Below, piece by piece: positions 51-9,375 of a stretch of 64,000 bases of DNA; position 1 is the stretch's first letter, and every line of letters begins with the position of its first letter. The notes below the pieces were generated by a model that saw only the letters and a list, made by a program, of their open reading frames with translations, did not search any database and had not been told where the DNA came from. The position numbers were made by a program, and so were the translations under genes. The DNA comes from Candidatus Nitrotoga sp. 1052 (lineage in GTDB: Bacteria; Pseudomonadota; Gammaproteobacteria; Burkholderiales; Gallionellaceae): NCBI RefSeq assembly GCF_927312905.1, contig NZ_CAKMHQ010000006.1, forward strand, positions 62,001 to 126,000, in the 5' to 3' direction.

Positions 51-1097
51 ATGACCAAACTAAATCGTTTTTTTTATATATTTGGGCTTGCCGCCTCGTT
101 GTCGTTAGCAGTCAATGCTTCGGCCGTTAACCTCACCGGCGCAGGCGCCACCTTCCCCTATCCAATTTACGCCAAATGGGCAGATACTTATAAAACCCAA
201 ACCGGCATCAGCCTGAATTACCAATCTATCGGTTCCGGCGGGGGCATCAAACAAATTATCGCTAGGACAGTAGATTTTGGCGCCTCAGATATGCCGTTGA
301 AACCCGAAGAGCTGGAAAAGAACGGCCTGATGCAATTCCCGGCAGTGATGGGCGGTGTGGTGCCTGTCATCAACGTAGCCGGAGTTGCAGCCGGGCAGCT
401 CAAACTGGATGGCAAGGTGCTGGCCGACATTTTCCTCGGCAAGATCACCAAGTGGAATGACCCGGCACTAATGGCGCTGAATGTAGGCACTAAACTGCCC
501 AATGAAACCATCACCGTAGTACATCGCTCCGATGGTTCAGGCACCACCTTCATCTTCACCAACTACCTGTCCAAGGTTAGCCCGGAATGGAAATCTGCGG
601 TCGGCGAAGGCACTGCTGTCTCCTGGAAAGCGGGCACTGGCGGCAAAGGCAATGAAGGCGTGGCATCTTATGTGCAGCGCATAAAAAATTCCATCGGTTA
701 TGTGGAATATGCTTATGCTCTGCAGAATAAAATGACTTACGCACAACTAAAGAACCATGACGGCCAGTTTGTCAAACCAGATGACACCTCGTTCAAGGCT
801 GCTGCTGCCAACGCTGATTGGGAAAAGGCTCCAGGTTTTTATGAACTGTTGACCAACGAACCAGGCAAAGAAAGCTGGCCCATCACCGGTGCCACTTTCA
901 TTCTGATGCACAAGACGCAAGACAAACCTGAAACAGCTAAAGAGGTACTAAAGTTCTTCGACTGGGCTTACAGCAATGGCGGCAAAATGGCTGAGGCTCT
1001 GGATTATGTACCCATGCCGGAAAAAGTTCAGCAATTGGTGCGCGCCGCCTGGAAAGCACAGATCAAGGATAACAAGGGCAAGGCTTTCTGGAAATAA
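51..1097 (+). CDS. pstS: Phosphate ABC transporter substrate-binding protein PstS
   Basis: This is the periplasmic phosphate-binding protein that delivers inorganic phosphate to the PstCA permease. The 348-residue length is typical. A signal peptide of about 25 residues ends at NASA, and the mature protein begins with the family hallmark LTGAGATFPYPIY. The SIGSGGG and RSDGSGT phosphate-binding loops are also visible. The start is supported by a GGAGAG ribosome binding site 4 bases upstream. It is the first gene of a pstSCAB operon. A 12-bp stem-loop follows it, which fits the usual excess of pstS over pstCAB expression. Only 50 bases upstream are in the window, so a Pho box cannot be judged. 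Confidence 0.97.
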   Translation: MTKLNRFFYIFGLAASLSLAVNASAVNLTGAGATFPYPIYAKWADTYKTQTGISLNYQSIGSGGGIKQIIARTVDFGASDMPLKPEELEKNGLMQFPAVMGGVVPVINVAGVAAGQLKLDGKVLADIFLGKITKWNDPALMALNVGTKLPNETITVVHRSDGSGTTFIFTNYLSKVSPEWKSAVGEGTAVSWKAGTGGKGNEGVASYVQRIKNSIGYVEYAYALQNKMTYAQLKNHDGQFVKPDDTSFKAAAANADWEKAPGFYELLTNEPGKESWPITGATFILMHKTQDKPETAKEVLKFFDWAYSNGGKMAEALDYVPMPEKVQQLVRAAWKAQIKDNKGKAFWK

Positions 1098-1153
1098 TAG
1101 TCTACTTAAGCGCTCTGGCAGCGTGTGTTTGCAAGATATAATTCTTGCTGGAT

Positions 1154-1186
1154 AAAATTTGAGGGGGCCGGGCTCCCTCAAATTTT
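1154..1186 (+). terminator. Stem-loop between pstS and pstC (attenuator or mRNA stabiliser)
   Basis: A perfect 12-bp inverted repeat (AAAATTTGAGGG at 1154-1165 and its complement at 1175-1186) encloses a 9-base loop. It sits in the 107-base gap after pstS, and no strong T run follows. Partial termination or protection of the pstS message is the likely role; this is an inference. Confidence 0.6.
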
Positions 1187-1204
1187 GAGCACTTTTAAAA
1201 AATC

Positions 1205-2167
1205 ATGCCGACGTTTTTACGTGAAGTACATATGAAGCGCCATAATTTGCTGGACATTCTGTTCCGCAATGTCACTCGCTTGTCTGCATTTGCCGTGCTC
1301 ATGCTGCTAGTCGCCATAATCGTTTCGTTGATAATCGGCAGCCTACCCTCCATCAAGACGTTCGGTTTCCGGTTTTTAACCAGCGCAGAATGGAATCCGG
1401 TCACGGACGAGTTTGGCGCACTCGTTCCGATAGTTGGCACGCTGGTAACCTCTGCCATCGCCTTGCTGATCGCAATCCCGGTCAGTTTCGGCATCGCGCT
1501 TTTCCTCACTGAACTGTCACCGCGCTGGTTACGCCGCCCATTGGGCATTGCCATCGAACTGCTGGCTGGTATCCCCAGCATTATTTACGGCATGTGGGGT
1601 CTGTTCGTATTTGCGCCACTATTTGCTGACTATGTACAGCCTTGGCTCATTGAAAAACTTGGTCCGCTGCCGATATTTGGGCCTTTGTTTCAGGGCATTC
1701 CCATGGGTATAGGTGTGCTCACCGCAGGCATCATTCTTGCCATCATGGTAATTCCCTTTATTGCCTCGGTGATGCGCGATGTGTTCGAAGTTGTTCCTAC
1801 CCTGCTCAAGGAATCTGCTTATGGCTTGGGCGCTACCACTTGGGAAGTGATGTGGCATGTGGTACTGCCCTATACCAAGATCGGTGTGGCCGGCGGTATT
1901 ATGCTCGGCTTGGGGCGTGCGTTGGGCGAAACAATGGCGGTCACCTTCGTCATCGGCAATGCACATAAATTGAGTGCCTCACTACTGATGCCGGGTAATA
2001 GCATCTCCTCCGCGCTGGCCAACGAATTCAATGAGGCAGTGGGCGAGTTATATACCTCAGCGCTGGTCGAACTCGGACTAATTCTATTCTTAATCACTTT
2101 CATCGTGTTGTCGCTGGCGCGTTATATGCTGTATATGCTGACGAAACGCGAGGGATCTACGACCTGA
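1205..2167 (+). CDS. pstC: Phosphate ABC transporter permease PstC
   Basis: Inner-membrane permease subunit of the Pst high-affinity phosphate importer. Up to 320 residues with about six hydrophobic segments. The binding-protein-dependent transport signature (EAA loop) lies around [21 protein letters not shown], and [12 protein letters not shown] follows, as is typical of PstC. The reading frame opens at 1205, but the second ATG at 1232 (giving [11 protein letters not shown]) is about as plausible because neither has a strong ribosome binding site. pstA begins 2 bases after its stop, so the two are translationally linked. Confidence 0.95.
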
Positions 2168-2169
2168 TT

Positions 2170-3015
2170 ATGCTGACACTCTACGCACGCCGCCGTCTGA
2201 TTAATGCCATAGGTCTCGGAATTTCGGCCCTGGCCATGCTGTTCGGCCTGCTCTGGTTGGGCTGGATTTTATGGACGCTACTGGCAAACGGCCTGCCTCA
2301 ACTATCCATGGCAGTGCTTACCCAGATGACGCCACCACCAAACAGCGCCGGCGGCTTGCTCAACGCCATTGCCGGCAGCCTGATGATGACCTTTCTCGCC
2401 GCACTAATTGGCACTCCTATCGGCATACTGGCGGGCACCTATTTGGCGGAATTCGGCCAGCGCGGCTGGTTAGCGCCGACCACGCGCTTCATTAACGACG
2501 TATTGCTTTCTGCACCATCTATCGTGATCGGTCTGTTCATATATGAAATGTATGTCATCAAGATTGGGCACTTCTCCGGCTGGGCCGGTGCGCTGGCATT
2601 ATCCATTTTAGTCATCCCGATCGTCATCCGCACCACCGAAAATATGTTGCGCCTGGTGCCGAATACCTTGCGCGAAGCGGCGGCAGCGCTGGGCGCACCG
2701 CAATGGAAGGTGATCAACCTGGTTACTCTGCGCGCTGCACGAGCCGGCATTATTACCGGGGTGCTGCTAGCTGTGGCGCGTATTAGCGGAGAAACCGCAC
2801 CGCTATTGTTTACCTCGCTGAATAATCAATTTTGGAGCAGCGATATGAATCAGCCCATGGCCAACCTGCCGGTAGTCATTTTCCAATTTGCCATGAGTCC
2901 TTACCAGGACTGGCAGAGTCTCGCCTGGGCTGGTGCGCTGCTTATCACTTTCAGCGTGCTCTCGCTCAATATAATGGCGCGAGTCTTATTCCGCCAGAAA
3001 TCAACAACTTATTAA
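2170..3015 (+). CDS. pstA: Phosphate ABC transporter permease PstA
   Basis: Second inner-membrane permease subunit of the Pst transporter, 281 residues with about six transmembrane segments. The EAA-type loop [16 protein letters not shown] and the following [13 protein letters not shown] match PstA. It partners with PstC to form the phosphate channel and is driven by PstB. It starts 2 bases after pstC, and pstB follows after 12 bases, so this is one operon. Confidence 0.95.
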
Positions 3016-3027
3016 GGATGCAGACAG

Positions 3028-3801
3028 ATGGGCGCTGAAAAAACTGTTACTCCGAAGCTGGTCGTACGCGACCTGAATTTTTACTACGGGGCTGAGCGCG
3101 CCCTCAAGGACATCAACCTGACCATTCCGGAAAAAATGGTGACCGCCTTTATTGGTCCCTCAGGCTGCGGCAAGTCCACCATGCTGCGCACCTTCAACCG
3201 CATGTACCAGCTCTATCCGAAGCAAAAAGCTACTGGCGAAGTTCTGCTGGATGGTGAAAATATTCTCGACAAAAAACAGGATCTCAACACACTCCGTGCC
3301 AAGATCGGCATGGTATTCCAGAAACCTACTCCGTTCCCAATGTCTATTTATGACAACATTGCTTTCGGTGCGAAACTCTATGAAAACCTTAGCCGCCATG
3401 ATATGGACGAGCGCGTGGAATGGGCATTGAGGAAAGCAGCGCTCTGGACAGAGGCGAAAGATAAACTAAAACAGAGCGGCACCGGACTTTCCGGCGGTCA
3501 GCAACAGCGCTTGTGTATCGCGCGCGCTATTGCTGTCAAACCGCAAATATTGTTGCTCGACGAACCTACCTCTGCGCTAGACCCAATTTCCACCGCACAC
3601 ATCGAAAAGCTGATCGATGAGCTGAAAGCAGAATTCACCATCATCATCGTCACCCACAATATGCAGCAGGCAGCGCGCGTGTCAGACTACACCGCCTATA
3701 TGTATCTGGGCGACCTGATCGAATTCGGCGATACCAGCACGGTGTTCACCAATCCTAAGCGCAAGGAAACGGAAGATTACATTACAGGCCGATTCGGGTA
3801 A
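3028..3801 (+). CDS. pstB: Phosphate ABC transporter ATP-binding protein PstB
   Basis: Cytoplasmic ATPase of the phosphate importer, 257 residues. It shows Walker [13 protein letters not shown] signature LSGGQQQR, Walker [14 protein letters not shown] and the H-loop VTHNMQQA, all in the expected order. An AAGGA ribosome binding site precedes the ATG. It is the last gene of pstSCAB. A phoU gene, which often follows pstB, is not present; the next gene is convergent and unrelated. Confidence 0.97.
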
Positions 3802-3927: not shown

Positions 3928-4671
3928 TCAACTCAGGCATTCTTTAATTTCTGCCCATAACGACTCATAAGCCAAAGCTGCCCGACACTTTGGAGCATAG
4001 CTGGCAAGGGCTGCGCGATTAAGTCCCATACGTTCTATATCGCTGGCATAGGGAATAGTAGTGTTAAGCAATCCGGCTAAAGTTTTCGGTGGCTTTTCAA
4101 CAATAAGCCGGTGCAGCTGTTTGCGTATGTCCACCATGGAAAAAAATGGAAGCACCAGAAGATTATCCAGATTATTTTCTTTGCAAAACTTCAGAATCTG
4201 GTCCAACGTTCGCAACGATAAAATCGTAGGAATGGTCGGCACTAACAAGATGTCAGCCGCCTGAAATACGTTTTCGGATACTAGCGAAATACTGGGCGGA
4301 CAATCCAGAAAAGCAATGTCATAGTCGTCATCCAGACTCTTGAGCAACTTTCGTAATTGCCGCGTGGGTTTTTTTGCATCTTCCAAAAATAAATCCATAT
4401 TGCGGAAGGAAAAGTCCGCAGGAATAAGGTCGAGATTGGCATAATCAGTTCCCTTGATTAACTCACCCAAACCTTGCTTGCCATCCATCAGCGTTTTAAA
4501 GCCTCCTTTTATCTTGGGCTTAACACGAAAATAAAAAGAAGCCGCACCTTGCGGATCCAAGTCCACAACCAATGTGCGGGCACCCTCACGACTTGCCAGA
4601 TAGGCCAGATTGACGGTCGTTGCGGTTTTACCGACACCCCCCTTAATGTTGTAGCAGGCAATAATCTTCAT
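3928..4671 (-). CDS. ParA/MinD-type partition ATPase coupled to the CHAD gene
   Basis: A small 247-residue ParA-family ATPase without an N-terminal DNA-binding domain. It has the deviant Walker A KGGVGKTATT with the signature lysine (K10) and catalytic lysine (K15). The A' motif DLDPQG lies around residue 37 and Walker B FLDCPP around residue 121. No parB or parS is visible nearby, so it is probably not a chromosome partition system. Its start overlaps the end of the CHAD-domain gene by 29 bases, so the two are translationally coupled. Orphan ParA proteins of this kind position cellular cargo such as carboxysomes (McdA) or chemoreceptor clusters (ParC). Here the cargo could be polyphosphate granules, which is an inference from the neighbour. 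Confidence 0.85.
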   Translation of the reverse strand: MKIIACYNIKGGVGKTATTVNLAYLASREGARTLVVDLDPQGAASFYFRVKPKIKGGFKTLMDGKQGLGELIKGTDYANLDLIPADFSFRNMDLFLEDAKKPTRQLRKLLKSLDDDYDIAFLDCPPSISLVSENVFQAADILLVPTIPTILSLRTLDQILKFCKENNLDNLLVLPFFSMVDIRKQLHRLIVEKPPKTLAGLLNTTIPYASDIERMGLNRAALASYAPKCRAALAYESLWAEIKECLS

Positions 4672-6274
4672 GAGAGCGTGCTTCCTTTTGGATCTTGGGT
4701 TTAAATAGCCTCCTGAAAGCTACACGATTCTTATTTTCTGCGAAGGTCGCAAATCGTGTCTTAAACATTTTGCGTACCTGGCTTTGGCGTTGTTCGAGCG
4801 TCTGCAGAATAATATCAATTGCCGCCAACGTACGGTCAGTCGCTCCGCTTTCGGATTTCATCTGGGCCCTGAATGTTGCCAATGATGCGATTTGAACATG
4901 AATATCCTGATATTCTCCGAGTTGATTTTGAAGAAACTTCAGCGCTTTAATTAACTGCTTGATCTCATCCGATGGATAGAGGCTTTGAAAAAATTCCATC
5001 AAGTAACGCAGTTTTTTGCATGACTTGCGTAGTTCATGCAAATCTTCGGGGGGGCTGCTCGCATTGATAGCCTCACCTTCTTTAATGACACGTCGAACCA
5101 TGCGCCATATTCGCTGATTTGCTACATCAAACGTTGAACAGTGGGCATTAGGAAGTGTAGTTCGTGCTGGTAATGGAGCTTTCAAGTACACTAGCCAAGC
5201 AGCTATCATTTTTCTATAACGCGCTGACTCTAGATGCATAACTAACTTTTTATGTTCGATTATCCGATGTTCTCCCAGAAAATAATAAAGTGGGTCAAGA
5301 TCATCCCTGACAGGTAGCGGCAGGCTATTTTTGTAAGCTCCGAAATTTAACAGATAGACATCGAGGTCACGGGTTGGGCCAGTTATTTCTCCTAGCCATG
5401 CAAATTTTCGACTAAATCGATCCCACATTTTATGTGGCAAAACACCTCTTATTTGCCCTAAAGCCGAACGACTCCGTCGTACAGCGACGCGGAAGTCATG
5501 GAGAAACTCTGTATCCAAATCAGCTCTTATGCCCCACTCATTAGCTTTCATAATCTCAAGCAGGCGCAACAAAATGTTGCGCATCACCACCTCGATATGT
5601 GTCTCCGGACGCAGCTTTAAATTCAAATCGGAAGAATATGCTCCAGGCTGTAATTCAACTGCTGCCATTGCCCTTTGTACCATACCCTGGTTATCAACTT
5701 TAAGAGCCAACTGTTGATTGATTACTTGTAAAACTTCTTTAAAAACGGTGCCATAACCTTTCACTGATTCTACGTACAATATGGCAGGAAGCTTGCGTGG
5801 CTTGGATTCGGTCGATCCCAAAATTCGATTTTCTTCGATACCTAGCCGGGCGACCGTTTTTTTTTCCTTATTCAGCACTATCAGGCCATGAACCATACAG
5901 TTCATGCGAAGAAGGGGCAACAAGGCACGCATTTCCAGTATAGGCTCCAGACGTTCGCGCAGATCACAATCAGGCAGATCCCAAGCAAATCGGACCATGT
6001 TATTGATTGAGGTGTTGCCATAAATTTCATTGGACACAAAGTTGCGCCAACGCAATGCAAAGCCACCAGTTCCGGATTCCTTTTCAATAACGCCACCGGC
6101 ACAATAAATTCGCCAGTCAAAACTATCAAAGTAGGTACGCTGCAACACGTGGGTATGCAATTCCTCACAATGCATGCATGTGAGAAATTTATTTTTAATG
6201 TCCGATATTTTTATGTCAGCCGGAATGACAAAACTCATCCGATGAACTGTGGTGCTCACCCTTTGTACGGACAT
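4643..6274 (-). CDS. CHAD domain protein (polyphosphate-associated)
   Basis: A 543-residue protein. The C-terminal half (about residues 225-520) is a CHAD domain. Its two histidine/arginine helices are visible as HDFRVAVRRSRS (residue 259 on) and HELRKSCKKLRY (residue 413 on). CHAD domains bind polyphosphate and locate to polyphosphate granules. The N-terminal 220 residues contain a YFDSFDW-type stretch followed by ALRWRN and look like a diverged CYTH-type tunnel fold, but that is uncertain. The gene lies between a CYTH protein and a ParA ATPase, with which it overlaps, in a minus-strand set that also includes exopolyphosphatase. Confidence 0.85.
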   Translation of the reverse strand: MSVQRVSTTVHRMSFVIPADIKISDIKNKFLTCMHCEELHTHVLQRTYFDSFDWRIYCAGGVIEKESGTGGFALRWRNFVSNEIYGNTSINNMVRFAWDLPDCDLRERLEPILEMRALLPLLRMNCMVHGLIVLNKEKKTVARLGIEENRILGSTESKPRKLPAILYVESVKGYGTVFKEVLQVINQQLALKVDNQGMVQRAMAAVELQPGAYSSDLNLKLRPETHIEVVMRNILLRLLEIMKANEWGIRADLDTEFLHDFRVAVRRSRSALGQIRGVLPHKMWDRFSRKFAWLGEITGPTRDLDVYLLNFGAYKNSLPLPVRDDLDPLYYFLGEHRIIEHKKLVMHLESARYRKMIAAWLVYLKAPLPARTTLPNAHCSTFDVANQRIWRMVRRVIKEGEAINASSPPEDLHELRKSCKKLRYLMEFFQSLYPSDEIKQLIKALKFLQNQLGEYQDIHVQIASLATFRAQMKSESGATDRTLAAIDIILQTLEQRQSQVRKMFKTRFATFAENKNRVAFRRLFKPKIQKEARSHEDYCLLQH

Positions 6275-6441
6275 GATTTTCTTTGAATATTGGTCATTTT
6301 GGAGTATTTATATGACTAAAGAAGAGTGGGTACACAGATCCATGATGATAGATTGCAATATGCCATATGCCATATGCATGTAATTCTCTGCCTTGCCGCC
6401 TGGAATATTCAGTCGAACATCAGCCCGATTTTTACTGGACT

Positions 6442-7065
6442 TTATTTTGCATGAGAGTAGCCGCTATAAAACTTATAGCCTCGGTCAGCCTTGCTTCTAT
6501 CTTCAGGCTGCAAAGCAATTGATTTCCGCAATTCTCGGGCCAGATCGAACAGTGACGCAGGGGCTCCTGACTTCAATTCCAATTCAACTTCGCAAATCGG
6601 AACCTGTTTATTTTTTGCCTGTATTTCGCCTGCATCCAATGCCAGCTCAATTAAACCGTTAGGAAGCTCCATTAGCCAGATCGTGCGCCAGAAATCCGTT
6701 ACAAATATCGGTATTAACCTGTTTTGGATATCCGGCGTAAAAAAACTGTGCCATGGTGATACTGATAGCTTGTCAAAATCCGGCATGCCACCAGTAACAG
6801 GCACTTCCCATTCAGGACGTTGATGCAGCCCACCCTCTACATTGCCGCTACCTTTCACGGTCTGAATCCAGTGTCCACCAGCCTGACGTAAACGCAGGGC
6901 AATCCGCTGGCGCATAAGCTCAAGATCCGGCGTATCAAAGTAAATGCTGTGAAGCTTTTGCCTCAACGGCCCGGATTTGCACGCCGACTTAAGCAGTGGG
7001 TGCTGCAATAACTGGGGGATGTTTGCGCTATCAATGAGTAGCTTCAATTCAATTTCAGTATGCAT
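6442..7065 (-). CDS. CYTH domain protein (inorganic triphosphatase-like)
   Basis: A 207-residue protein consisting of a single CYTH domain. The N-terminal EIELKL supplies the ExExK metal/phosphate motif. YFDTPDLEL, ALRLRQ, TVKG and RPEWEV follow in the order of the family's tunnel strands. CYTH enzymes hydrolyse inorganic triphosphate or bind polyphosphate. In many bacteria CYTH and CHAD are fused in one protein of about 500 residues (YgiF-like); here they are separate neighbouring genes. The exact substrate cannot be read from sequence. Confidence 0.85.
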   Translation of the reverse strand: MHTEIELKLLIDSANIPQLLQHPLLKSACKSGPLRQKLHSIYFDTPDLELMRQRIALRLRQAGGHWIQTVKGSGNVEGGLHQRPEWEVPVTGGMPDFDKLSVSPWHSFFTPDIQNRLIPIFVTDFWRTIWLMELPNGLIELALDAGEIQAKNKQVPICEVELELKSGAPASLFDLARELRKSIALQPEDRSKADRGYKFYSGYSHAK

Positions 7066-7143
7066 AAGCGTAGTACGGAATATTTTAAGTCACAAATATT
7101 TGCAGGTATAAAGCTATGTTTTAACAGCAGTTACATAAAAATA

Positions 7144-8637
7144 TTAACTGGTTACTGAAAAACTGACTCCTACTGCCTTCCATTCTTTGATCTCAGCTTG
7201 CAACGCATTTTCTGTGAGCGGATTTTGCTCAATCCAATATTTATCAAGTTTGATGCGATACTCATTGCCGCTTTTTTTCAATTGCATTTCAGGCAAGGTT
7301 ACATCCGTACGACTACGACAAAACAAAACCGCCAGACGCAATGCTAATATTGCGCTCCAATCCTGTATTATTCCCGACAAGTTTGGCACCTTGGAAAGCG
7401 ACCCGCGTTGCGCTCTTACTTGCAACCCAAGCTGAAACTGTTCCATTTTAGAAAAACCCGGCATATCAGCGTTTTCCAAAATGTAAGCTGCATGTTTGTG
7501 ATAACCACTATGTGCGATGGAAATACCTATTTCATGCAACCTGGCCACCCATTGCAACTGCTGCTGCGCAGCGTCAACATCAACATCAACATCAACGTCA
7601 TAGCCCTGCGCCACTTGCTTGAAAAACGACAACGATAAATCCTCCACACGTTTGGCTTGTAATGGATCAATATGGTAACGTCGCATGAATTGGCTCACGG
7701 TGACATCGCGCATATCCTGATGATGCAAACGACCCAACAGGTCATATAACACCCCTTCTTTGAGGGCGGCGCCCGCTACGCTCATATGCTGAATATTCAA
7801 TTCAGTGAAAACTGCCGACATAATGGCGAATCCACCAGGCAGAACAGGAATGCGATCCGGTTTAAGGCCAAGTGCATCCAGCCGCTTGCATTCTCCTGCT
7901 TTCAGTAACATGGAACGCAATTTTGCCAGCCCCTCTGCCGTTATACCTTCATTGCTCCAATCGTTTTGCTTTAACAAATCTGCCAACGCACGTGCTGTAC
8001 CAGATGACCCGATCGCTTCTTGCCAATTTCCGCCGGAAAACTCAAAACGAATTGTTTGTAGCTCCATGCGCGCAGCGAGTTCCGCCTGCCGCATGGCATC
8101 TTTAGTAATTTTACCGTCGCCAAAAAAACGCTTGCTATAACTGACGCATCCCATATACAAACTTTCCATTCGAAGCGGCTCCAATCCCTCGCCAATCACG
8201 CATTCGGTAGAGCCACCGCCGATATCAACCACCAACCTATGATTTTGCGATGGTGGCATGCCATGTGCCACGCCCAGATAAATTAACCGCGCCTCCTCTC
8301 GGCCAGCGATTACTTCGATCGGAAAACCCAAGGCATCTTCTGCTTTTTCAAGAAAAGCGGATGCATTTTTAGCCAGCCTGAAAGTATTCGTACCTACCGC
8401 CCTTACAGCATGGATTGGCAAGCCACGTAAGCGCTCGCCAAAACGCTTAAGGCATGCAAGGGCACGTAGTTGGGACTCGTCGTCCAGAAATTTGTCCGGC
8501 GTTAGCCCTGCAGCCAGACGTACCGTTTCCTTCAAGGAATCGAGTGGATATATCTGATCTTCCACCACTCGCGCGACTTGTAGCCGGAAGCTATTGGAAC
8601 CCAAATCCACTGCGGCAATGGTATCGTATGCTTGCAC
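7144..8637 (-). CDS. ppx: Exopolyphosphatase / guanosine pentaphosphate phosphatase (Ppx/GppA)
   Basis: A 497-residue actin-fold phosphatase that removes terminal phosphate from polyphosphate (or from pppGpp). N-terminal AAVDLGSNSFRLQ and VVDIGGGSTECV are the two phosphate-binding loops. The C-terminal HD-like region (WVARLHEIGISIAHSGYHKHAAY) is typical of Ppx/GppA. A hexanucleotide repeat encodes a run of alternating Asp-Val around residues 350-358, probably in a surface loop. It is the first gene of the ppx-CYTH-CHAD-parA minus-strand set. No ppk lies in the window. Confidence 0.93.
   Translation of the reverse strand: MQAYDTIAAVDLGSNSFRLQVARVVEDQIYPLDSLKETVRLAAGLTPDKFLDDESQLRALACLKRFGERLRGLPIHAVRAVGTNTFRLAKNASAFLEKAEDALGFPIEVIAGREEARLIYLGVAHGMPPSQNHRLVVDIGGGSTECVIGEGLEPLRMESLYMGCVSYSKRFFGDGKITKDAMRQAELAARMELQTIRFEFSGGNWQEAIGSSGTARALADLLKQNDWSNEGITAEGLAKLRSMLLKAGECKRLDALGLKPDRIPVLPGGFAIMSAVFTELNIQHMSVAGAALKEGVLYDLLGRLHHQDMRDVTVSQFMRRYHIDPLQAKRVEDLSLSFFKQVAQGYDVDVDVDVDAAQQQLQWVARLHEIGISIAHSGYHKHAAYILENADMPGFSKMEQFQLGLQVRAQRGSLSKVPNLSGIIQDWSAILALRLAVLFCRSRTDVTLPEMQLKKSGNEYRIKLDKYWIEQNPLTENALQAEIKEWKAVGVSFSVTS
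7574..7605 (-). repeat. Hexanucleotide microsatellite inside ppx
   Basis: About five copies of a six-base unit (ACATCA on the + strand, the last one variant) encode alternating Asp and Val. A change in unit number would keep the reading frame and change the protein only by Asp-Val pairs. Confidence 0.75.
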
Positions 8638-8901: not shown

Positions 8902-9375
8902 TCAATGTTTCGTTGGCCGACCTGTTTTGAGTATTTCCACTTGCCCTACAACATTAACCAACTCAGAATCAGACAGCTTTGACAAGCAAAGCAACCCCGC
9001 TCGCAGCAATTCACTTTTCTTCACATGAACACCAGCCAGCAGGCACTTCCTCTTTAATGCGGCGAACTGCGAATAATCATTTTCTGGCATGCTGAAGCTA
9101 TCACGCACCATTTTAATTTTTTTAGGCTTATCCGCCTTTGATAACTTCCCCGTTTTAACTATTTTAGAAGGTGTTACATCAGATTTTGCGACAGGATTTT
9201 TGTTTGCCATTTTGGCCGTCACCTGTGTGGGAATCACGGCTTTAACCGCTGGAGCAGGCTTAGGCTTATTACTTGCTGCCACTTTAGTTGGCAACGATCT
9301 CGTAGCAGTTTTAGATTTAGAAACAGGTTTGGATTTAACAGCATTTTTTGCTTTTGTCGTCATGGCTCGCTCCAA
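8902..9375 (-). CDS. Lysine/alanine/proline-rich basic protein with C-terminal helix-rich domain
   Basis: A 157-residue protein in two parts. Residues 1-90 are low complexity (Lys, Ala, Pro, Thr, Val) and resemble histone H1-like or AlgP/PhaF-type tails that bind DNA non-specifically. Residues 91-157 form a compact domain (SFSMPENDYSQFAALK, KKSELLRAGLLCL, LKTGRPTKH) resembling ribbon-helix-helix-type sequences common in betaproteobacteria. An internal start at residue 5 is possible. It lies just upstream of ppx on the same strand. By analogy with AlgP in Pseudomonas, it could link the nucleoid to storage granules; this is an inference. Confidence 0.75.
   Translation of the reverse strand: MERAMTTKAKNAVKSKPVSKSKTATRSLPTKVAASNKPKPAPAVKAVIPTQVTAKMANKNPVAKSDVTPSKIVKTGKLSKADKPKKIKMVRDSFSMPENDYSQFAALKRKCLLAGVHVKKSELLRAGLLCLSKLSDSELVNVVGQVEILKTGRPTKH

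Follow-up and report, generated by a model that had tools for sequence, protein, structure and literature searches.

A ParA-CHAD gene pair from Candidatus Nitrotoga as a candidate positioning module for polyphosphate granules

The ParA-CHAD locus

The DNA studied here, referred to as the window, is a stretch of 64,000 nucleotides from Candidatus Nitrotoga sp. 1052 (contig NZ_CAKMHQ010000006.1, positions 62,001 to 126,000), of which a 3.23-Mb draft genome in 99 contigs is available. On its minus strand lies a gene for a ParA-family ATPase that overlaps a gene for a CHAD protein (Table 1). We propose that the products of this pair, which recurs far outside the genus, position polyphosphate granules.

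Open reading frame (ORF) coordinates and Pfam matches confirmed the layout described in an earlier sequence-only reading of this DNA: the ParA and CHAD genes share 29 bases, the CYTH and ppx genes lie upstream of them on the same strand, and the genes of the pst phosphate transporter converge on the pair from the other side. The gene pstB (3028-3801) was assigned by NCBIfam TIGR00972, and pstS, pstC and pstA were named from sequence and gene order. The start codon assigned to ParA is plausible, since residue 10 is the first of the deviant Walker A motif and a Shine-Dalgarno-like AAGGAAG stands 9 nt before the ATG. From the overlap, which is also found in two congeners (G006 and G001), we infer that translation of the two genes is coupled. 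The separate CYTH protein is likely, to judge from its family, to be a short-chain polyphosphatase or a triphosphatase.

Table 1. Coordinates of the genes and signals around the ParA-CHAD pair in the window
Feature	Position	Strand	Basis
pstS, pstC, pstA, pstB phosphate transporter, convergent with ParA	51..3801	+	ORF calls
ParA-family ATPase, 247 aa, ATG start	3928..4671	-	ORF call; Pfam AAA_31, 4.6e-38
Overlap of CHAD 3' end and ParA 5' end, 29 nt	4643..4671	-	ORF coordinates
CHAD protein, 543 aa	4643..6274	-	ORF call; Pfam CHAD, 5.8e-57
AAGGAAG, Shine-Dalgarno-like, inside the CHAD gene, 9 nt upstream of the ParA ATG	4681..4687	-	By eye
Separate CYTH protein	6442..7065	-	Pfam CYTH, 4.6e-28; EIELK (ExExK) near the start, by eye
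ppx/gppA-type exopolyphosphatase, GTG start	7144..8637	-	Pfam Ppx-GppA, 1.4e-72

Elsewhere, the genome has a PPK1 gene (contig C56), and its only CHAD match is the one in the window. The sequence-only reading had also seen neither parB nor parS at this locus, and this holds: no parB was found beside ParA, the sole ParB_N match of the genome being next to a soj homologue on contig C22, and parS-like sites in the window were not above the chance level (one match at 3 mismatches compared to 1.89 expected). With neither element at the locus, a chromosome or plasmid partition locus is ruled out.

Conservation of the pair

A close ParA homologue was found in 10 of 149 relatives searched, the source genome included, and in 7 of 19 genomes of the genus. 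The wider survey covered 369 genomes of the class from 272 genera, with the ParA, CHAD and PPK1 counts treated as one draw. Here the ParA subfamily occurred in 57 genomes of 46 genera, with 58 matches, and in 43 of the 58 a CHAD gene lay directly upstream on the same strand, when about 0.015 was expected by chance. CHAD neighbors were counted twice, with a local profile on the fetched flanks (the final count including the short CHADs of L105, L109 and L119) and with Pfam PF05235 over the 369-genome draw, and both counts gave 43/58. All 43 linked CHADs, from 42 genomes and 29 families, are upstream and on the same strand; the genes overlap in 27 of these pairs, most commonly by exactly 4 bases (19/43). 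Chance adjacency is ruled out by these numbers. Among the matches listed in a scan of the contigs of named genomes, none of the 36 generic ParAs had a CHAD gene next door, which also rules out drift of a generic ParA.

In a draw across phyla, the subfamily was present in 70 of 398 genomes, and many of the loci from other classes had no CHAD gene beside ParA. Among the matches listed in the named-genome scan, the pair was found in Prauserella muralis, Rhodothalassium salexigens, a complete Lentisphaerota genome and a Desulfococcaceae draft, as well as in metagenome-assembled genomes (MAGs) of Planctomycetota, Chlorobiaceae, Actinomycetota and Mariprofundales, for which contamination is possible. 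By record title, at least six phyla carry the pair (Pseudomonadota and five others), and a Pfam scan of the CHAD neighbors from the wider-phyla loci identified CHAD in 10 of the 10 checked. The total of linked loci is 69, including repeat or near-copies (L208, L230). The survey called for by the sequence-only reading thus found adjacency well beyond close relatives, in 29 families of the class and six phyla, and this removes one of the two outcomes by which that reading was to be judged wrong.

Evolutionary distances among the ParAs were correlated with those among their CHAD partners (Mantel r 0.76 over 62 pairs, with none of 2000 permutations as high); seven partial, duplicate or odd loci of the 69 were left out. 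This correlation no doubt owes something to common species history. Taken together, these results make a conserved functional pairing of ParA with CHAD almost certain.

An apparent ParA-CHAD fusion in G094, a frame of 631 aa, proved to be two separate genes with a 4-nt overlap, the frame being open upstream. The ParA at this locus (L037), which stands behind the CHAD gene, has a long C-terminal extension (531 aa compared to 247).

The ParA subfamily

The window ParA has the hallmarks of the ParA/MinD deviant Walker A group, namely KGGxGKT with the signature lysine, the catalytic aspartate and Walker B, and is without a long N- or C-terminal extension. Residues K10, K15, D37, D39 and D123 are kept in 48/48 aligned members, and H187, E213 and M215 are invariants of the subfamily's own across the same 48. 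The protein scores under the cut-off of all 25 matching NCBIfam models (81 bits for the best, with 180 needed), and the best NCBIfam E-value among the 48 members, 1.4e-28, comes from that same model; the subfamily has no NCBIfam name. The structure model (mean predicted local distance difference test, pLDDT, 92) is closest to Soj-type ParAs (8ray, Z 32.8, 2.0 A over 246 residues; 2bej, Z 32.0), and McdA (6non) also matches, at Z 29.0.

A tree of 146 rows split the subfamily from Soj-like ParAs by a 100% branch; of 170 rows, L031, L164, L125 and near-copies were left out, and 12 of the 36 generic ParAs were kept. The 134 subfamily rows comprise 66 that are CHAD-linked, 64 that are not and 4 at contig edges, and the link label requires 16 changes over the tree, compared to 47 on average when labels are shuffled. 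As CHAD-linked rows stand near the base of the tree and throughout it, the pattern fits an early link to CHAD followed by many losses, although many of the inner branches are weak. The border of the subfamily is not sharp: among the matches listed, full members scored 196-400 bits, generic ParAs 130-159 and a fragment at a contig end 176, and four matches of the phylum draw fall at 157-178 bits.

One congener whose genome is a single contig has a second, broken ParA copy with 2 stops (L031, G006:C1:40000-59900), with a SixA gene on one side and pst genes on the other.

The paired CHAD protein

The model of the window CHAD protein (pLDDT 92) has a tunnel fold of the triphosphate tunnel metalloenzyme (TTM)/CYTH type at residues ~8-213, confirmed by matches to TTM structures at Z ~12-16, and a long CHAD domain at ~213-528. 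The latter matches the polyphosphate-bound structure of CtCHAD (6qva) at Z 36.1 with 34% identity. Mutation of H253, R256, R260, R296, R418 or Y419 of CtCHAD lowers polyphosphate binding (PMC6537752; this and the other papers are cited from the portions of their text that were available). Mapped by counting, these residues correspond to H259, R262, R266, R302, R423 and Y424 of the window protein. In an alignment of 47 of the 59 full-length linked CHADs, the six polyphosphate-contact residues are kept in 46-47 of 47 and the PF05235 domain is present in all. The paired CHAD of a Chlorobiaceae MAG, whose locus also contains PPK1, is orthologous to CtCHAD (461 bits, among the matches listed). Since the contact residues are kept, polyphosphate is very probably the ligand of the paired CHAD. 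The link between CHAD and a polyphosphate cargo is thus stronger than was apparent to the sequence-only reading, resting on residues tested by mutation and on an ortholog of CtCHAD within a ParA pair.

The tunnel domain has lost its catalytic motif. ExExK is missing in the window CHAD and in 58 of the 61 paired frames whose N-terminal part is complete (the count was anchored on the CHAD domain, and 8 of the 69 linked loci, with a short N-terminal part, were left out), and 11 of 12 distinct frames of uncoupled CHADs contain it. None was found in the first 60 residues of the 47 aligned paired CHADs, and none of these 47 matched Pfam CYTH. With the motif missing in nearly all frames and no Pfam CYTH match, the paired CHAD looks like a binder rather than an enzyme. 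The separate CYTH gene of the window retains ExExK. The pattern does occur in three paired frames (L082, L125 and L156). In L082 and L125 it is probably there by chance, as it lies far from the first strand. The paired CHAD of L156, from a Microthrixaceae MAG (Actinomycetota), has ExExK at the right place and a weak CYTH match below the Pfam cut-off; perhaps this is an older, active form.

Polyphosphate gene context

Within the class survey, CHAD was found in 50/57 genomes with the ParA subfamily and in 70/312 without it (odds ratio 24.7), and PPK1 in 52/57 and 163/312, respectively (odds ratio 9.5); as genomes are not independent, Fisher values are descriptive only. The neighbors of the 43 linked pairs, within 6 kb or the fetched flank, include SixA (14), Pst (10), PPK1 (6) and PPX (6), and in L114, from a genome without a CHAD match, PPK1 lies 7 bp upstream of a subfamily ParA.

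One possible explanation for such neighbors is that ParA does not determine position at all and is an ATP-sensing regulator, acting through CHAD on PPK1, PPX or SixA to control polyphosphate synthesis or breakdown. The neighbor counts and the PPK1-ParA arrangement of L114 would agree with such a switch. Against it, these neighbors vary while CHAD is constant, and ParA is closest, both in fold and in sequence, to partition ATPases of the Soj type; we regard this scenario as rather unlikely.

Exceptions to the pairing and alternative roles

Several observations weigh against a positioning module made of these two proteins. The first is that the link is not absolute: 15 of the 58 class matches have no CHAD link, eight of them from genomes with CHAD elsewhere and seven from genomes without any CHAD match, and ParA stands without a neighboring CHAD in 64 of the 134 subfamily rows of the tree. 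Of the 57 ParA-positive genomes, 7 are without a CHAD match and 5 without a PPK1 match. Conversely, no ParA match was found in three genomes of family f183 that possess a paired-type CHAD domain, which in one of them comes with the tunnel domain. Three congeners (G008, G013 and G018) keep ParA without this CHAD, with pairwise dN/dS of 0.07-0.19. Moreover, a partner peptide is not evident in CHAD. The basic N-terminal peptide typical of ParA partners was not seen, a net charge of at least +2 being found in 2 of 39 N-tails, and the C-tails reach that charge in 14 of 47, so that a conserved basic partner tail, looked for at both ends, was not found. Finally, of two arginines that we take to bind DNA in Soj, only one position looks kept (R183, 46/48). 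The adjacency seen by the sequence-only reading is widely conserved and yet not absolute, with 15 of 58 class ParAs unlinked and three congeners holding ParA without this CHAD.

The three congeners carry a CHAD of another kind, a YgiF-type CYTH-CHAD, in place of the ParA-type CHAD, and G013 retains a 3'-end remnant of the latter. Two of the uncoupled CHADs with ExExK, in G013 and G018, have a ParA at distances of 0.9 and 2.8 kb. No second CHAD was matched at 1e-10 in the four congeners with the pair. In G008, G013 and G018, ParA either can use the other CHAD or acts with some additional partner. Their dN/dS of 0.07-0.19 gives no support to a decay of these CHAD-less ParAs. Of the 12 genomes of the genus with a match, four have the ParA-type CHAD only and eight the YgiF-type CYTH-CHAD only, and the two seem mutually exclusive in the genus, the G013 fragment aside.

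The exceptions bear on two further scenarios. In one, ParA and CHAD merely share a phosphate-response operon, and ParA positions another cargo. ParA is indeed kept without this CHAD in three congeners, and unlinked ParAs adjoin genes that by eye are ntrB-ntrC-like, acyl-CoA ligase-like or acc-like. However, gene order and the 4-base overlap recur across phyla while the remaining neighborhood changes, and ParA and CHAD distances are correlated; co-regulation alone is very unlikely to account for the pair. In the other, ParA itself binds polyphosphate through its DNA-binding surface, both ligands being polyanions, and CHAD only regulates, which would accommodate the ParA-positive genomes in which CHAD is missing. 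This second scenario drew no support from any test in this analysis and is highly improbable.

The missing partner peptide would fit a static tether, in which the two proteins anchor polyphosphate to the nucleoid or restrict the fusion of granules, with no active gradient. In Pseudomonas aeruginosa, the number, size and spacing of granules are influenced by AlgP, which is not an ATPase (PMC9239181, PMC13052382), and a recent review considers that nonspecific DNA binding is possibly sufficient (PMC13052382). A tether alone would have no use for D39 or the two Walker lysines, and yet all three are kept in 48/48 ParAs; we consider a static tether unlikely.

Some unlinked ParAs have recurrent neighbors of their own. 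Those of L161, L162 and L122-L124, from Halothiobacillus and family f207, follow immediately after ntrB-ntrC-like genes. In another class, a clade of unlinked ParAs (L217, L221, L229, L231 and L233) has a divergent small neighbor, which we take to be RnfH-like, with a long Lys/Ala-rich tail resembling the histone-H1-like tails of AlgP and PhaM.

Proposed function

By analogy with ParA/ParB and McdA/McdB, the pair is rather likely to be a cargo-positioning module for polyphosphate granules, with CHAD as the adaptor; to much the same degree, we expect it to move or space the granules, with the result that each daughter cell receives a share. CHAD would bind polyphosphate on the granule, a step with strong support from residue conservation and an orthologous crystal structure. 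ParA, to judge from its family and its fold (a Soj-like monomer model), would bind ATP, dimerize and sit on nucleoid DNA. Contact with granule-bound CHAD may then stimulate ATP hydrolysis and local release of ParA, and the granules, following the resulting ParA gradient, would stay apart and reach both daughter cells. As the 4-base overlap is conserved, coupled translation of the overlapping genes may keep the ratio of ParA to CHAD. The tunnel domain of CHAD, having lost its catalytic motif, might serve as a structural or ParA-contact domain.

A broader claim, which we hold to be somewhat more probable than its opposite, is that this is an old and widespread ATP-driven machine, found in at least six phyla, in which ParA and a catalytically dead tunnel-CHAD adaptor partition granules, and that it is the first ParA system for polyphosphate. 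If true, it would extend the list of known cargoes, which the available portions of PMC10241942 give as the chromosome and protein-based ones, and would offer a role for CHAD proteins and a name for a nameless subfamily. The coupled ParA-CHAD pair makes the question of energy use in spacing and sharing out polyphosphate granules directly testable.

Other features of the locus

The G+C content is 0.444 over ParA-CHAD and 0.474 over CYTH-ppx, compared to 0.517 over pstSCAB and 0.501 in the window. Because of this difference and the patchy spread in the genus, the segment 3928-8637 may have been acquired by transfer. Within ppx (window ~7580-7600, minus strand), a GATGTT-like repeat encodes VDVDVDVD, two VD units more than in three congeners. 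Beside ppx, an ORF on the minus strand (8902-9375) encodes 157 aa with a Lys/Ala/Pro/Ser-rich N-terminal half and a C-terminal half that by eye is ribbon-helix-helix-like. It has no Pfam match at 0.001 and looks like a histone-like nucleoid protein. Of 61 relatives, 33 have a match, and G012 has two on a single contig. As a partner of ParA, which occurs in 10 of 149 relatives, this Lys-rich protein is unsupported.

Comparison with known systems

The adjacency itself is already in print, a point on which the sequence-only reading needs correction: in Acidithiobacillus, the order folD-ppk-parA-CHAD is conserved in five species or strains, and the available portions of that paper propose neither a function for ParA nor a role in granules (PMC10892726). 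The likeness to our pair, a ParA gene with CHAD and ppk, was drawn from that description and not from subfamily sequence. Among the papers listed from the literature searched, to which bioRxiv and most subscription papers do not belong, none on a ParA for polyphosphate granules was found. A 2025 review has AlgP as the sole polyphosphate entry in its table and notes that energy use remains to be seen; the portions seen name no ATPase for these granules (PMC13052382).

AlgP of P. aeruginosa shares with the proposed module the spacing of polyphosphate granules and a link to the nucleoid; it is histone H1-like and no ATPase (PMC9239181). The CHAD phosins, represented by CtCHAD (6qv7/6qva), have the same long CHAD fold and the six tested residues, with an ortholog in a ParA pair, and the text portions and legends searched of the CtCHAD paper do not name ParA (PMC6537752). 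The YgiF-type CYTH-CHAD polyphosphatase (5a60) has both the tunnel domain and CHAD in common with the paired protein, and differs in ExExK, which is missing in 58/61 paired and present in 11/12 uncoupled frames.

Among positioning ATPases, one from Halothiobacillus neapolitanus may belong here. Five cargoes are positioned in this organism, and an ATPase listed under 'nitrogen metabolism' was set aside (PMC10241942); by elimination, from the portions of the paper available, this is Hn0255. Two Halothiobacillus members of the present subfamily lie directly behind ntrB-ntrC-like genes, and for this reason Hn0255 is probably a member too, a judgment made from gene context and not from its sequence. 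The pairing described here may thus explain an ATPase that had been set aside.

Soj/ParA of the ParABS systems is the closest relative in fold and sequence (8ray, Z 32.8; 2bej, Z 32.0), with the catalytic motifs kept, but our locus lacks ParB and parS, and its ParA belongs to a separate subfamily with invariants of its own (H187, E213, M215) behind a 100% branch. McdA/McdB offers the nearest parallel in design, as a two-gene module of a ParA-type ATPase and an adaptor for non-DNA cargo with no parS (PMC10241942, PMC12204374). The gene coupling that marks McdAB is found in ParA-CHAD as well, with CHAD as the putative adaptor, and the ATPase fold matches that of McdA (6non, Z 29.0), although the window ParA is only 18-19% identical over the model. 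The cargo here would be polyphosphate, and CHAD is without the basic N-terminal stretch described for McdB in the portions of these papers available. The module would thus work like McdAB, but it is not filed as a member of McdAB, and it is not ParABS.

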